DNA of 64,000 nt from Tumebacillus lacus. Lineage in GTDB: Bacteria; Bacillota; Bacilli; Tumebacillales; Tumebacillaceae. The stretch spans positions 1 through 64,000 of the forward strand of contig NZ_JAPMLT010000011.1 of the NCBI RefSeq assembly GCF_026410385.1. Direction: 5' to 3'. Made by a program: the position numbers and the translations under genes. The first letter of the stretch is position 1; each line of letters begins with the position of its first letter. Positions 885 to 25,861 of this stretch are shown here, one piece after another. The notes under the pieces were generated by a model. That model was not told the origin of the DNA and searched no databases. It saw only the letters and a list, made by a program, of their open reading frames with translations.

Positions 885-2273
885 TTGTCTATGTGGCGGT
901 TTCGCGCGGCTGTTTTGGCTGCGAAGACGGTAAAGAAGTTGTTGACGCTATCGGGTCGTAAAGGGACGACTCTGCCCGGGAAGGTCGCGCTGTCGATCTA
1001 TCCGGAGTTGTTGGCCGTATACGGAAAGATGCTCGGGGAGCAGATCGTGTTTGTGACCGGGACGAATGGGAAGACGACGACGAGTAACCTGCTCGTTCAT
1101 TTTCTGCGCGAAGATGGGCGTGAGGTGATCAGCAATAGTTTGGGTGCCAATCTGATTCAAGGGATCGCGACGACTCTGATCGAAGGCGTTGATACGCGCC
1201 GTCGCGGGCAACAGGCGGTGGTCCTGGAGGTCGATGAGGCGACGATCGGGAAGGTGATCGGGCATCTGCGTCCGAAAGCGGTCGTGGTGACGAACTTTTT
1301 CCGGGATCAGATGGATCGGTACGGGGAGCTGGATCATGTCGTGGATATGGTCGGGAATGCATTGAAAAAGGCGCCTGACTCCACGACGGTGATCTTGAAT
1401 GCGGATGATCCGTTGGTGACTTCGATTGCTCCGGACGGGAAGAATGTGGTGTATTTTGGAATCGAGTCGAGTGCGTTCGATTCGGAGGAGCATTCGGAAG
1501 TTCGGGACGGGAAGTATTGCCGGAAGTGTGGGTCGGAGTTGGAATATTCGTTGTACCATTATGGGCAGCTCGGGTTTTATCAGTGCCCGTCTTGCGGGTT
1601 CTCGCGCCCGGAGCCGTCGATTGCGGCGGAAGGGGTTCGGTTGGATGCGGAAGGGATTCGGTTTGGGGTAGGTGAGGTGACGGGGTTTATCAACTCGCCT
1701 GCTTTGTATAACGTGTATAATGCGTTGGCGGCTGTGACGGCTTCCACTGTGGTGGGGGTGGACGGCGATGTGCTGATGCGTGAGATGGGGTATATGAAGA
1801 CTCAGTTGGGGCGGATGGAACGGCTGATTTCCGGCTCCGGGAGAGAGTTGATGTTGACGTTGGTGAAGAATCCGACCGGGTTTAATGAGGTGCTCAAGGT
1901 GGTGGAGCATGAGAAGAAGCCGGTGGAGATGTTGATTATTTTGAATGACCGGTATGCGGATGGGACGGATGTGTCCTGGATCTGGGATACGAATGTGGAA
2001 CGGCTGCAGCAGTTTGCGGATCTGCGCAAGATCTATGTGGCCGGGACGCGGGCTGAGGATTTTGCGATTCGGTTGAAGTACGCAGATCTGGGGGAGATTA
2101 CGGAGATTGTGGAAGGGGATACGCAGTCGGTGGATGAGGCGGTGAAGAGGTTGGCGGGAGATTCGATGTTGTATATCCTGTCGACGTATACGTCGCTTTA
2201 TCTGGTGAGGGATCATCTGTTGGCTCAAGGGGGCCAAGAGGTGGGAAGACGGCAGGCGGTGTCGGCTTCGTAG
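885..2273 (+). CDS. murT: MurT-type Mur ligase (lipid II isoglutaminyl synthase, ligase subunit)
   Basis: A 462-aa Mur ligase of the MurT group, which with the glutaminase GatD amidates the D-Glu residue of the peptidoglycan stem peptide in the cytoplasm. The ATP-binding loop TGTNGKTTT lies near residue 58; the central Mur domain is followed by a four-cysteine zinc ribbon (CRKCGSE and CPSCG, about residues 210-242) that is typical of MurT and absent from ordinary Mur ligases; a DUF1727 C-terminal part follows with DRYADGTDVSWIWD. The TTG start at 885 is fixed by AAGGAGGA at 871-878. Known murT genes are nearly always followed by gatD. Here the next features are a T/G-rich spacer and tRNA genes, and the upstream gene is not a glutaminase, so the partner must be elsewhere or missing. 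Confidence 0.9.
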   Translation: MSMWRFRAAVLAAKTVKKLLTLSGRKGTTLPGKVALSIYPELLAVYGKMLGEQIVFVTGTNGKTTTSNLLVHFLREDGREVISNSLGANLIQGIATTLIEGVDTRRRGQQAVVLEVDEATIGKVIGHLRPKAVVVTNFFRDQMDRYGELDHVVDMVGNALKKAPDSTTVILNADDPLVTSIAPDGKNVVYFGIESSAFDSEEHSEVRDGKYCRKCGSELEYSLYHYGQLGFYQCPSCGFSRPEPSIAAEGVRLDAEGIRFGVGEVTGFINSPALYNVYNALAAVTASTVVGVDGDVLMREMGYMKTQLGRMERLISGSGRELMLTLVKNPTGFNEVLKVVEHEKKPVEMLIILNDRYADGTDVSWIWDTNVERLQQFADLRKIYVAGTRAEDFAIRLKYADLGEITEIVEGDTQSVDEAVKRLAGDSMLYILSTYTSLYLVRDHLLAQGGQEVGRRQAVSAS

Positions 2274-2354
2274 GGTTTGGTTTTTTGGTTGAAAGGGCGA
2301 TCTGGGTTCCGCTGGTTTGGTGGGATTTGGGTCGTTTTTTTTGTGGGGTGGGGG

Positions 2355-2383
2355 TTGTTTTTTTGGGGGGGAGGTGGTATGAT
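2355..2383 (+). promoter_or_regulatory. Probable promoter of the tRNA pair
   Basis: TTGTTT (2355-2360), 17-base spacer, TATGAT (2378-2383), with TGG directly before the -10 box. It lies in a G/T-only-looking spacer after murT. Confidence 0.5.
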
Positions 2384-2424
2384 AACACATGTCGCCGCTG
2401 AGAGCGGGACAAGGTTACAGATAT

Positions 2425-2501
2425 GGCGGTGTAGCTCAGCTGGCTAGAGCATTCGGTTCATACCCGAAGGGTCGGGGGTTCAAGTCCCTCCGCCGCTACC
2501 A
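2425..2501 (+). tRNA. tRNA-Met (CAT), elongator type
   Basis: A full cloverleaf can be read: acceptor GGCGGTG with CGCCGCT, D arm GCTC-GAGC, anticodon stem TTCGG/CCGAA around TTCATAC (anticodon CAT), and T arm with GTTCAAGTC. CCA is encoded. The sequence resembles the Bacillus elongator tRNA-Met. A CAT anticodon could also be a tRNA-Ile that becomes lysidine-modified, but the acceptor stem favours Met. Confidence 0.93.
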
Positions 2502-2505
2502 ATAT

Positions 2506-2589
2506 GGAGAGATACCAAAGTGGCCAACTGGGGCGGACTGTAAATCCGTTGCGAAAGCTTCGAAGGTTCGAATCCTTCTCTCTCCACCA
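2506..2589 (+). tRNA. tRNA-Tyr (GTA)
   Basis: A class II tRNA with acceptor GGAGAGA/TCTCTCC, anticodon loop CTGTAAA (anticodon GTA), a long variable arm (around TTGCGAAAGCTTC) and encoded CCA. It lies four bases after tRNA-Met, so both are cotranscribed. Confidence 0.95.
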
Positions 2590-23337: not shown

Positions 23338-23488
23338 CATCAGTCGAAGATGATGACAAAAAATTTTTTGGACAAACTTTTCCCGAGACCCGCATAAAAT
23401 CATCCCGTTGTACGTATTCCGTATATGATGCCCCGTCAAGAGTGTCATATTGTTGGAAACGGACGGGATCAGCAAGGGGGAAATGGAC

Positions 23489-25009
23489 ATGAACGAGCGA
23501 ATCTTGGCCGGTCGGTATCGTCTCCAAGAAGCGGTCGGCGGCCGCTCGGATCTCTGGCGCGCTCATGACGAAGCGCTGGGTCGCCAAGTGGCGGTCAAGC
23601 GGCTGGCCGCTGGAGTGACGGAGGACCGCAGACGTCAGCTGGAGCCGGAGATCGCCAAGGCGGCCGGTCTGCATGACCCGCACTTGTTGGCCGTATATGA
23701 TGCGGTCTGGGAAGAAGATGTCTTTTATTTGGTCACTGAAGACCTTGAAGGTGATAGTTTGGCCCGCTACGTCCGCGATCAGAGCAAGGTAGAGCCGGAG
23801 CGGGCGGTCGATCTGATCTGCCAATTGGCAGGCGCGGTCGTGCAAGCGGAAAAGAACGGTGTCTATGAATTGTCGATCGATCCAAAGACGGTTTTGATCG
23901 ACGAAGGCTATTTGAAAGTGATCGAGTATGGACCGCTGGCGACGGCGTCGCGGGCGCAAAGCACGCGGGAGCAGATTCACACGGTTGGCGTGCTGCTCTA
24001 TGAACTCCTGACCGGCAACGGCTGGTCAGACCTCGCGCCGACGCGTCAAGTGGTGCAGGATGTGCATCAGGCGCTCGCCGCCGCTCAGGTACATCACAGC
24101 TGGCTGCCGGAGCGGATGGAGAGCATCGCGCACCGCGCGCTCGGTCTGTTGGCGGAGGGCGGCTACCAGTCGATGCAAGAGTTGCACAAAGATGTGAAAG
24201 CGGTGCGTCACGCGATCGGGCAGGCGGCCGACCTGCTCGGTGAGCGGGGGCAGACGGGGTCGAAGGCGTCTGCAGGCGGCGTATCGCCGGTGGAACAGGT
24301 GCGCGACACGGTGCTCGGAGCGGCACAGGAAGGAATGGCGAAAGTGGCGCAGGTGCGCAAGATGGAGTTCGTCAAGCAGATGACCGAAAAGAGCACCCCG
24401 AAAAAGCGCAGCCCGCTGCTGTACGCGCTGGCCGCCGTCGTGTTGGTCATCGTCACCGGCGGGCTGTGGTGGACGGCGAGCGGCGAAGAGGCGACGACGG
24501 TGGCGCACGGTGAGTTCCAAGGCAAGGAAGTCAAGATGCCGAACTTGATCAACAAGACGGAGCAACAAGCGGTGCAGATCCTTACCGAGAACGGCTTCCC
24601 GCAAAATCGCATCCAGTGGGTGTATAAGCCGACCGATGAACGGCTGACCGAGGGAAAGATCTATCAGCAGTCGGTCGACCCGAACACGCAGGTGGTGACC
24701 GGCGAGCAGATGATCGTGCTGACGGTCAACGGCACGATGACCGACGGTCAAACGGCCGGCGAGTCGAACGGCAGCAACGGCGGCAACAACCCGAACGGGC
24801 AAGAGTCCGTGACAGCGGGCGTTGTGCCCGACCTGCGCGGGATGTCGCAACCCGATGCCGAACAGATGCTGCTCAAACTGGGTTACCGCTACTCGTTTGA
24901 GATCAAGAGCGGCGGCGACACTCCGGCCGGTACTGTCTACCAGCAACAACCGGCAGCCGGTTCAAAGGCGGAACAGGGCGCACGGGTGACGTTCTACGTC
25001 AATCAATAA
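23489..25009 (+). CDS. PASTA-domain membrane protein with a degenerate Ser/Thr kinase domain (pseudokinase)
   Basis: A 506-aa protein: kinase-like domain (about 6-245), linker, one membrane helix (about 309-329), and two extracellular PASTA domains (about 345-412 and 441-506) joined by a Gly/Asn-rich linker. The VAVK lysine (Lys37) and a possible helix-C glutamate (Glu54) remain. Catalytic residues do not: the HRD-x-K-x-x-N loop reads ELSIDPKTVLI (Asp to Ser129, Lys to Asp131, Asn to Thr134) and DFG reads EYG (146-148); the glycine loop is AVGGRSDLW. It should bind muropeptides or lipid II outside but not phosphorylate. No PP2C phosphatase gene is next to it, unlike prkC/stkP. Start ATG 23489 fits AAGGGGG with correct spacing. 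Confidence 0.85.
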   Translation: MNERILAGRYRLQEAVGGRSDLWRAHDEALGRQVAVKRLAAGVTEDRRRQLEPEIAKAAGLHDPHLLAVYDAVWEEDVFYLVTEDLEGDSLARYVRDQSKVEPERAVDLICQLAGAVVQAEKNGVYELSIDPKTVLIDEGYLKVIEYGPLATASRAQSTREQIHTVGVLLYELLTGNGWSDLAPTRQVVQDVHQALAAAQVHHSWLPERMESIAHRALGLLAEGGYQSMQELHKDVKAVRHAIGQAADLLGERGQTGSKASAGGVSPVEQVRDTVLGAAQEGMAKVAQVRKMEFVKQMTEKSTPKKRSPLLYALAAVVLVIVTGGLWWTASGEEATTVAHGEFQGKEVKMPNLINKTEQQAVQILTENGFPQNRIQWVYKPTDERLTEGKIYQQSVDPNTQVVTGEQMIVLTVNGTMTDGQTAGESNGSNGGNNPNGQESVTAGVVPDLRGMSQPDAEQMLLKLGYRYSFEIKSGGDTPAGTVYQQQPAAGSKAEQGARVTFYVNQ

Positions 25010-25031
25010 GCACAGCTAGAAGAAAAACAAG

Positions 25032-25070
25032 AAAAAGGCAACCTCCGACGTGTCAAGAGGTTGCCTTTTT
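25032..25070. terminator. Bidirectional terminator
   Basis: AAAAAGGCAACCTC and GAGGTTGCCTTTTT between convergent genes. Confidence 0.9.
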
Positions 25071-25097: not shown

Positions 25098-25343
25098 TCA
25101 GGAGAGGCGGCTCTTGAGGAGTTCGAGCACTTCACCGTCTTCCGGGAAGCGGCCGAGCTCCTTTTTGGAGAAGATCACCTCTCCGTTGAGAGTCAGTTCA
25201 AACACACCGCCTGTGGCGGGGACCAGCGCGAACTCGCGGATCGAAAATTGATGATGCGTCAACAGTTCTTCCGTCAACCTGACGGCTTTGGGCAAGAAGC
25301 CTCAAGACGTGCAGTAGGACAGAGACAATTTGTTCTCAGCCAT
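25098..25343 (-). CDS. SelW-like (Rdx family) selenoprotein with in-frame UGA
   Basis: Read from ATG 25343 (AGGAGG upstream), the frame encodes MAENKLSLSYCTS, a TGA at 25304-25302, then GFLPKAVRLTEELL and on to a normal stop at 25098, 81 codons. The redox motif of the Rdx/SelW family is C-x-x-C or C-x-x-U; here it is C11-T-S-U14 with UGA at the second position. The rest matches the family (ALVPATGGVFELTLNGE, GRFPEDGEVLELLK). A SECIS-like hairpin starts within 25 bases of the UGA (separate feature). A frame called without UGA readthrough begins at a TTG with no ribosome site and lacks the active site. Function in the family: thiol redox protein. Confidence 0.8.
25266..25298 (-). promoter_or_regulatory. 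SECIS-like hairpin after the UGA codon
   Basis: On the minus strand, after UGA and GGC: TTCTT pairs with AAGAA as outer stem; the inner stem CCGTCA/TGACGG closes a GGT loop 22 bases after the UGA. The loop context CAGGUUG resembles the CAGGUCUG loop of the E. coli fdhF SECIS. Bacterial SECIS elements require a small G-containing loop at this distance. Confidence 0.7.
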
Positions 25344-25380
25344 ATGACAAGCAACCTCCTGTAAAGTAAGATGTCTTCAC

Positions 25381-25410: not shown

Positions 25411-25486
25411 ACCCATGATGACCGTCCGGCTCGGTTATGATATTCTAGGTAGTACACATTTCCGTGAGCGGGAGGACAAGAGAAAG

Positions 25487-25861
25487 ATGGAAGATCTGGG
25501 CATGTTTGAACCGGGGGTTGAAGGGCTCGAAGATCTCGCAGGGATCTTGGAGAGTCTGTTTGGTGACAGCCAGGTGTTTGTGCGGCTGTGGATGCGGGAA
25601 GAGCGGGGGGAGACGGTGCATGAGCATCTGTTGAGCCAGTTTGCCGGGACGCTGGATCTGTGCGGCATCGTGCAGTCGGAGTCCGAGGAGGATGTGGCGC
25701 TCGAGTTGCTGTTTCGCGAGGTCGATCCGACGGGAGGCGGCGAAGAACCGCGTTTGATGGCGATGCCGGTGGACAGTCAGGATGTGGAGGTCGATCTCGA
25801 CCCGGATCAAGTGGCGGTGAGCAGCGGGTCGTTTACGCTGGCGATCGAGCGGCTCGGCTAA
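25487..25861 (+). CDS. Hypothetical acidic protein, 124 aa
   Basis: Starts MEDLGMFEPGVEGLEDLAG; strongly acidic, with FVRLWMREERGE and VALELLFREVDP as beta-like segments. No family recognised. The start at ATG 25487 has GGGAGGACAAGAG upstream at slightly long spacing. Its stop codon overlaps, by two bases, the stop codon of the convergent gene. Confidence 0.6.
   Translation: MEDLGMFEPGVEGLEDLAGILESLFGDSQVFVRLWMREERGETVHEHLLSQFAGTLDLCGIVQSESEEDVALELLFREVDPTGGGEEPRLMAMPVDSQDVEVDLDPDQVAVSSGSFTLAIERLG

Follow-up and report, generated by a model that had tools for sequence, protein, structure and literature searches.

The window analyzed here comprises 64,000 nucleotides of the genome of Tumebacillus lacus (contig NZ_JAPMLT010000011.1, positions 1 to 64,000 of the forward strand) and carries, on its reverse strand, a gene of the selW type flanked by a convergent and a divergent gene (Table 1). 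The selW frame is composed of an ATG start codon (25343-25341), 12 sense codons, an in-frame UGA, 67 sense codons and a terminal UGA (25100-25098), with no other stop; the internal UGA is codon 14 and sits in the motif Y-C-T-S-U-G. A first-pass annotation, made from the sequence letters, had described a frame intact on both sides of a UGA at the second position of the C-x-x-U motif and preceded by a ribosome site, and its coordinates for the UGA (25304-25302) were right, with an AGGAGG sequence present upstream. It had also foreseen that standard gene callers would truncate the gene and lose its active site: the ordinary ORF listing contains at this locus a single 65-aa ORF starting at TTG 25295, from which the active site is missing.

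Table 1. Features of the selW locus and its immediate surroundings, in window coordinates.
Feature	Position	Strand	Basis
selW-like gene, almost certainly encoding a selenoprotein; 81 codons plus stop, Sec at residue 14	25098..25343	-	frame reading; PF10262 and TIGR02174 matches
In-frame UGA (Sec14, codon 14)	25302..25304	-	sequence; UGA kept in 4/4 genus genomes
Codon of Cys11, partner in C-x-x-U	25311..25313	-	sequence; C11 invariant in 19-row alignment
AGGAGG ribosome-binding site, 11 nt before ATG	25355..25360	-	direct reading
SECIS hairpin: 6-bp stem (25285-25280 with 25276-25271), GGU loop (25279-25277)	25271..25285	-	folding, covariation, Cys-form control
Inverted repeat with arms of 14 bp, a loop of 12 nt and an A/T tail at either end	25031..25070	.	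direct reading
Convergent neighbor: protein kinase with PASTA domains	23450..25009	+	Pfam; synteny
Divergent neighbor, no Pfam match	25415..25861	+	ORF listing; synteny; Pfam search

The inverted repeat that separates selW from the convergent kinase gene is probably a two-way terminator. A scan for promoters and terminators returned nothing convincing for selW, and the repeat itself was absent from its output, the loop limit of the scan being 8 nt. Among 11 relative loci compared by tblastn, the kinase/PASTA gene and the divergent gene were both found near selW in six (L018, L039, L041, L043, L046 and L047), and L056 also gave a weak kinase match. This gene order is a local one and points to no clear function. 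Rfam searches of the whole window at gathering scores detected two tRNAs and nothing else, so that no SECIS family was among the matches at these scores. ARAGORN called a tmRNA at window positions 2243-2589, which overlaps the tRNA-Met and tRNA-Tyr genes and is probably a false call. When the selW protein was searched against the complete assembly (4.18 Mb, 26 contigs), one match was obtained at E <= 0.001, and no second copy was found at this threshold.

Profile searches and structure prediction were carried out with Cys in place of Sec. The selW product matched the Rdx family of Pfam (PF10262; E 1.5e-20, 73.6 bits for a cut-off of 22.6) and TIGR02174 of NCBIfam (E 3.5e-17, 62.5 bits, cut-off 34.2), and fell just short of the cut-off of the narrower equivalog NF041051 (85.3 vs 88). 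Residue 11 (Cys) and residue 14 (Cys or Sec) were invariant in an alignment of 19 rows (A2). The AlphaFold model (pLDDT 85.5, pTM 0.69) predicts a strand (residues 4-11), a helix (17-31), three further strands (35-43, 48-52 and 55-59) and a C-terminal helix (71-80), placing the C-x-x-U motif between the first strand and the first helix. The best Foldseek matches of this model were SelW-related proteins (2fa8, TM 0.95), followed by MIEN1, mouse SelW and thioredoxins. The product thus combines the three properties by which members of the Rdx/SelW family are recognized, namely a profile score over the cut-off, the motif after the first strand and a thioredoxin-like fold. The solved bacterial Rdx structures (2fa8, 2oka, 2obk, 2ojl, 3dex and 2p0g) share its sequence family and fold, with TM values up to 0.95, although the closest of them, 2fa8, has C-x-x-C where the window's selW has C-x-x-U. 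Mouse selenoprotein W (2npb) belongs to the same superfamily but is distant (E 3.3e-6, TM 0.72); the mammalian protein has a C-x-x-U motif according to a passage of PMC8508763. As the part of PMC1088965 dealing with the SelW-like family calls its function unclear and takes C-x-x-U as a pointer to a redox role, we go no further than to say that family, motif and predicted fold together suggest such a role for the selW product.

Close relatives were compared for UGA or Cys at codon 14, a check proposed in the first-pass annotation, and the UGA was found to be conserved: each of the four genomes of the genus has one SelW match with one TGA inside. Across the class, 55 of 398 genomes gave a total of 59 matches, 56 with a TGA inside and 3 without. 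The UGA occupies the second motif position in all 56 (54 by pattern reading, with the window gene, L048, and L071 read separately), and in two of them the first position is UGA as well. Twenty loci of broader relatives from the genome collection were divided between UGA (11) and Cys (9), the UGA-form records coming from Bacillota, Actinomycetota, Desulfobulbus, Planctomycetota and Obscuribacterales. A chance stop is hard to uphold when the frame persists over such a distance with UGA in place of the Cys codon, and selW shows one of the marks of a bacterial selenoprotein, an in-frame UGA aligned with the Cys of homologues in a frame intact on both sides. The Cys found at this position in 9 of the 20 broader loci might also recommend a sequencing error, or a mutation particular to this strain that turned a Cys codon (TGC or TGT) into TGA, but the TGA recurs in independent assemblies, in 4/4 genus genomes and 53 class genomes, and the SECIS hairpin described below goes with the UGA forms, which leaves this explanation a negligible probability.

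The distribution of the selenocysteine-specific factor SelB follows that of the UGA form. SelB scored over the cut-off in 52 of the 53 class genomes with a UGA form and in 32 of the 345 without it (Fisher test, 1e-41, a value that ignores relatedness). The total of 84 among 398 genomes may be a lower bound, as scoring was limited to about 3 candidates per genome, and it does not agree with the first-pass view that selenocysteine use is uncommon in Bacilli. Two genomes have Cys forms only; SelB was found in one of them (G288) and not in the other. The selW and selB genes are no more than 15 kb apart in 13 of the 52 genomes, which links SelW to selenocysteine decoding in those genomes, and in six the distance is at most 130 bp, with both genes on the same strand. 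These six, in which selW is directly beside selB at 30-130 bp, are G338, G329, G347, G321, G232 and G343.

Substitution rates differed between the two sides of the UGA. For the 63 codons after it, pairs within the genus gave dN/dS values of 0.088/0.92, 0.081/1.33 and 0.085/1.35, and the window compared with L043 gave 0.174/0.66. For the 11 codons before it, comparisons of the window with relatives gave dN of 0.68-0.99 and dS of 1.1 or more, or saturated. The downstream part of selW is under purifying selection, and no clear purifying selection is seen over the 11 codons before the UGA. No decay elsewhere in the frame, which according to the first-pass annotation would have spoken against a selenoprotein, was seen in the relatives, and among 13 loci the terminal stop varies (TGA, TAA or TAG) while the internal UGA is conserved. 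It could be argued that translation truly terminates at this UGA, the gene being either a pseudogene or a source of the 65-aa piece from TTG 25295 and nothing more; this piece is all that a plain ORF caller reports, and the first 11 codons before the UGA are little conserved in the window. We consider this very improbable, because all four genus genomes retain the UGA together with the frame on either side of it, the UGA form recurs in 53 of 398 class genomes, SelB accompanies it in 52 of these 53, selection acts after the UGA, and a product of 65 aa would contain neither the first strand nor the active site.

The hairpin that follows the UGA (CCGUCA-GGU-UGACGG) has a 6-bp stem and a 3-nt loop starting with G, with a folding energy of -7.8 kcal/mol when taken alone. 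The first-pass annotation had a hairpin with a GGU loop starting 22 bases after the UGA; this distance is correct for the loop, whereas the stem already begins after 16 intervening bases. Bacterial SECIS constraints listed in a section of PMC13188914 are a loop of 3-9 nt, an upper stem of 4-16 bp, a G in the first two loop positions, 16-37 nt between UGA and loop, and an energy of <= -7.5 kcal/mol. The selW hairpin falls within all of these published constraints, and its form was thus judged properly at first reading as that which a bacterial SECIS element requires, a judgment to which the covariation described below adds.

A plain energy test of the window hairpin was not significant, and comparative tests were therefore used. 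The 56-nt fold had z = -0.95, an equal or better fold being reached by 29 of 200 shuffles, and the minimum-energy fold of 50 nt prefers a competing hairpin. Of 20000 synonymous shuffles, 931 under the uniform-codon model and 856 under the pooled-codon model also formed six of six pairs. The case for a SECIS element rests on comparative evidence, and the window hairpin by itself is unremarkable. The set used for comparison consisted of 38 distinct UGA forms and 9 Cys forms, after exclusion of L040, L042, L044, L045 and L048 (duplicate genes) and of L049 (identical to L019). L064, which is outside the 38, has a UGA and a 6/6 stem. Complete 6/6 stems at the SECIS place were present in 22 of the 38 UGA forms, and at least five of six pairs in 34, vs none of the 9 Cys forms with at least five; L020, L026, L036 and L037 were counted as misses among the 38. 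Synonymous-codon shuffles of the 38 sequences (1000 for each of two codon models) never reached 22 complete stems, the maximum being 6 or 8 depending on the model. Over all 56 UGA matches of the class, 6/6 pairs were found in 42 and at least 5/6 in 55, L142 having one pair. This locus (G161:C305:400-800) is a second SelW copy of its genome, with the UGA in place and 1/6 pairs at the usual distance; a shifted hairpin and a decaying copy are candidate readings. In another genome, with both UGA and Cys forms of SelW (L115, G004:C1:1322200-1322900), the Cys copy has 0/6 SECIS pairs.

Covariation was analyzed in an alignment of 34 rows, 33 of them distinct (A5), which does not include L020, L026, L036 and L037, whose hairpin was either in another place or not seen; L026, L036 and L037 have another G-containing hairpin nearby. 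In A5, 94.4% of the cells pair, and four of the six pairs show changes on both sides. The covariation score was 0.410, compared with 0.158 in shuffled alignments (reached by 0/500 shuffles), and cells with a two-sided change numbered 26 against a shuffled mean of 7.1. Versions of the hairpin slid along the alignment attained at most 54.0% pairing and a covariation of at most 0.174. Two of the five covariation measures were less extreme, in that 31 of 500 shuffles attained the number of pairs with a double change and 27 that of further pair types. The innermost pair is open in 10 of 33 rows, leading to a 5-nt loop with G in second position, which the SECIS model allows. At the terminal stops of 13 loci, on the other hand, at most 4/6 pairs were formed at SECIS distance, with 0 in the window.

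The expectation of the first-pass annotation that a selA/selB/selC/selD set would exist elsewhere in the genome was borne out by the assembly, in which selA, selB, selD and a gene for tRNA-Sec were all located. The tRNA-Sec gene (C21:40839-40931) scored 65.8 bits and was given the anticodon tca by ARAGORN, the other two matches over the Rfam cut-off being tRNA-Ser. The selA gene (C21:166382-167743; 614 bits) is followed by selD (pair, C21:166382-168722), whose N-terminal motif A-G-U-G-C-K runs through an in-frame UGA, and selB is located at C25:59586-61466 (389 bits), on a contig other than that of selW. The gene adjoining selB is one that we take from its sequence to be thioredoxin-reductase-like (trxB-like). 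The best selD match had one in-frame TGA in 14/14 genomes of the window's order, and the SelD motif was found in 14 of the 15 loci over the cut-off, a second copy in G098 (L106) being outside the pattern. In the window's genome the selD UGA is followed at 33 nt by an 8-bp hairpin with the loop GUU, and the best selD hairpin (8 bp, loop starting with G) is at 33 nt in 12 of the 14 genomes. The selD and selW hairpins are similar at the tip, as would be expected if one SelB reads both. Formate dehydrogenase, the usual selenocysteine enzyme, seems to be no selenoprotein here, since none of the three matches to its alpha subunit in the window's genome has an internal stop. Among selW, selD and formate dehydrogenase alpha, UGA genes were recognized in this genome for selW and selD.

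In G001, which belongs to the same genus, both selW and selD carry the in-frame UGA and a tRNA-Sec gene is present; SelB over the cut-off is absent from it, with no close SelB found when that of the window's genome was used as the query. A close trxB, the neighbor of selB in the window's genome, is absent from G001 too (best match, 31% identity) while the tRNA-Sec is present, which makes an assembly gap at trxB-selB the simplest and likely reading, with a loss of SelB as the less likely one.

The frame would stay open under any reassignment of UGA, be it decoding by a suppressor tRNA, by near-cognate readthrough or as Trp. Against such decoding stand the position of the UGA at the redox Cys, the presence of the full selenocysteine machinery, the conserved hairpin after the codon, and the use of UGA as selW's own terminal stop, where such a hairpin is missing. 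We regard it as most improbable. The selW gene is, almost certainly, that of a selenoprotein of the SelW-like (Rdx) family.

From what is established about the pathway, selenocysteine insertion in this organism would proceed as follows. UGA codon 14 of the selW mRNA would not be read as a stop; SelB, acting on the hairpin after it, would deliver Sec-tRNA(Sec) with the anticodon UCA, which SelA would have made from selenophosphate supplied by SelD. The product would be an 81-residue thioredoxin-like protein with Cys11-x-x-Sec14 as a thiol/selenol redox centre. Somewhat more likely than not, it would cycle between selenol/thiol and selenenylsulfide, reducing disulfides or peroxides and being regenerated by thioredoxin or a small thiol.

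Two genomes of one genus of the window's class, G149 and G170, possess a second SelW copy with two TGA codons each (L112, G149:C30:600-1300, and L113, G170:C12:8000-8800; also L117 and L118), which read through gives Y-U-T-G-U-G-F-L-P-K-A-V. Both genomes have SelB over the cut-off as well as C-x-x-U copies (L119 and L120), with a 6/6 stem in both of the latter. The surroundings of the U-x-x-U copies differ, a blastn comparison of 6,000 with 11,001 bases aligning 267 columns, at the gene itself. These copies have one 6/6 hairpin, the loop of which comes 34 nt downstream of the first UGA and 22 nt downstream of the second; both distances look usable, given that the best selD hairpin is at 33 nt in most genomes of the order. 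From its position, a single hairpin could therefore act on both UGA codons. The portions of PMC13188914 that list selenoprotein families assign a C-x-x-U motif and one Sec to SelW-like and place U-x-x-U under other families, and a SelW of U-x-x-U type was not found in the literature passages dealing with UxxU selenoproteins. It seems to us an even question whether one hairpin serves two Sec codons in a Sec-x-x-Sec, diselenide SelW and whether SelW is a main reason why many Bacilli keep selenocysteine, the latter idea following from the association of SelB with 52 of 53 UGA-form genomes taken together with the U-x-x-U copies.

SelW-like selenoproteins are already known in bacteria, and the gene in the window adds one more. 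Passages in the literature report 48 of them in the Sargasso Sea (PMC1088965), 10 bacterial SelW-like proteins then known together with Bacillales having 3 selenoproteins in 3 families (PMC1794560), 427 in GOS (PMC2398784), and SelW-like proteins in 35 organisms among more than 5200 in a 2016 survey (PMC5029168); the family lists in PMC9312934 and PMC13188914 include SelW-like with C-x-x-U, and a passage of PMC7996765 mentions selenocysteine synthase in two Aneurinibacillus species. The bacterial SelW-like selenoproteins (PF10262) have the same family assignment, a C-x-x-U motif, a single Sec and a SECIS element directly after the UGA; no structural difference from them was found, and the selW described here is a member of this group in Bacilli. 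Its Cys-form relatives (which are not the crystallized genes) are set apart by the missing SECIS hairpin. Eukaryotic SECIS elements, in turn, are located in the 3'-UTR as stated in a section of PMC1088965, whereas that of the window lies directly after the UGA. No paper on this selW gene was found in the open-licence literature searched.

Plain ORF calling cuts selW and removes the very residues on which its proposed chemistry depends. The 52 genomes of this class, among 398 examined, that have a SelW-like selenoprotein with matching selenocysteine machinery can be set beside the 35 organisms among more than 5200 given in the survey passage of PMC5029168, a rough comparison in view of the different sampling. 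The role of bacterial SelW would be open to experiment in a culturable relative whose selenoproteome is as small as the one recognized here.
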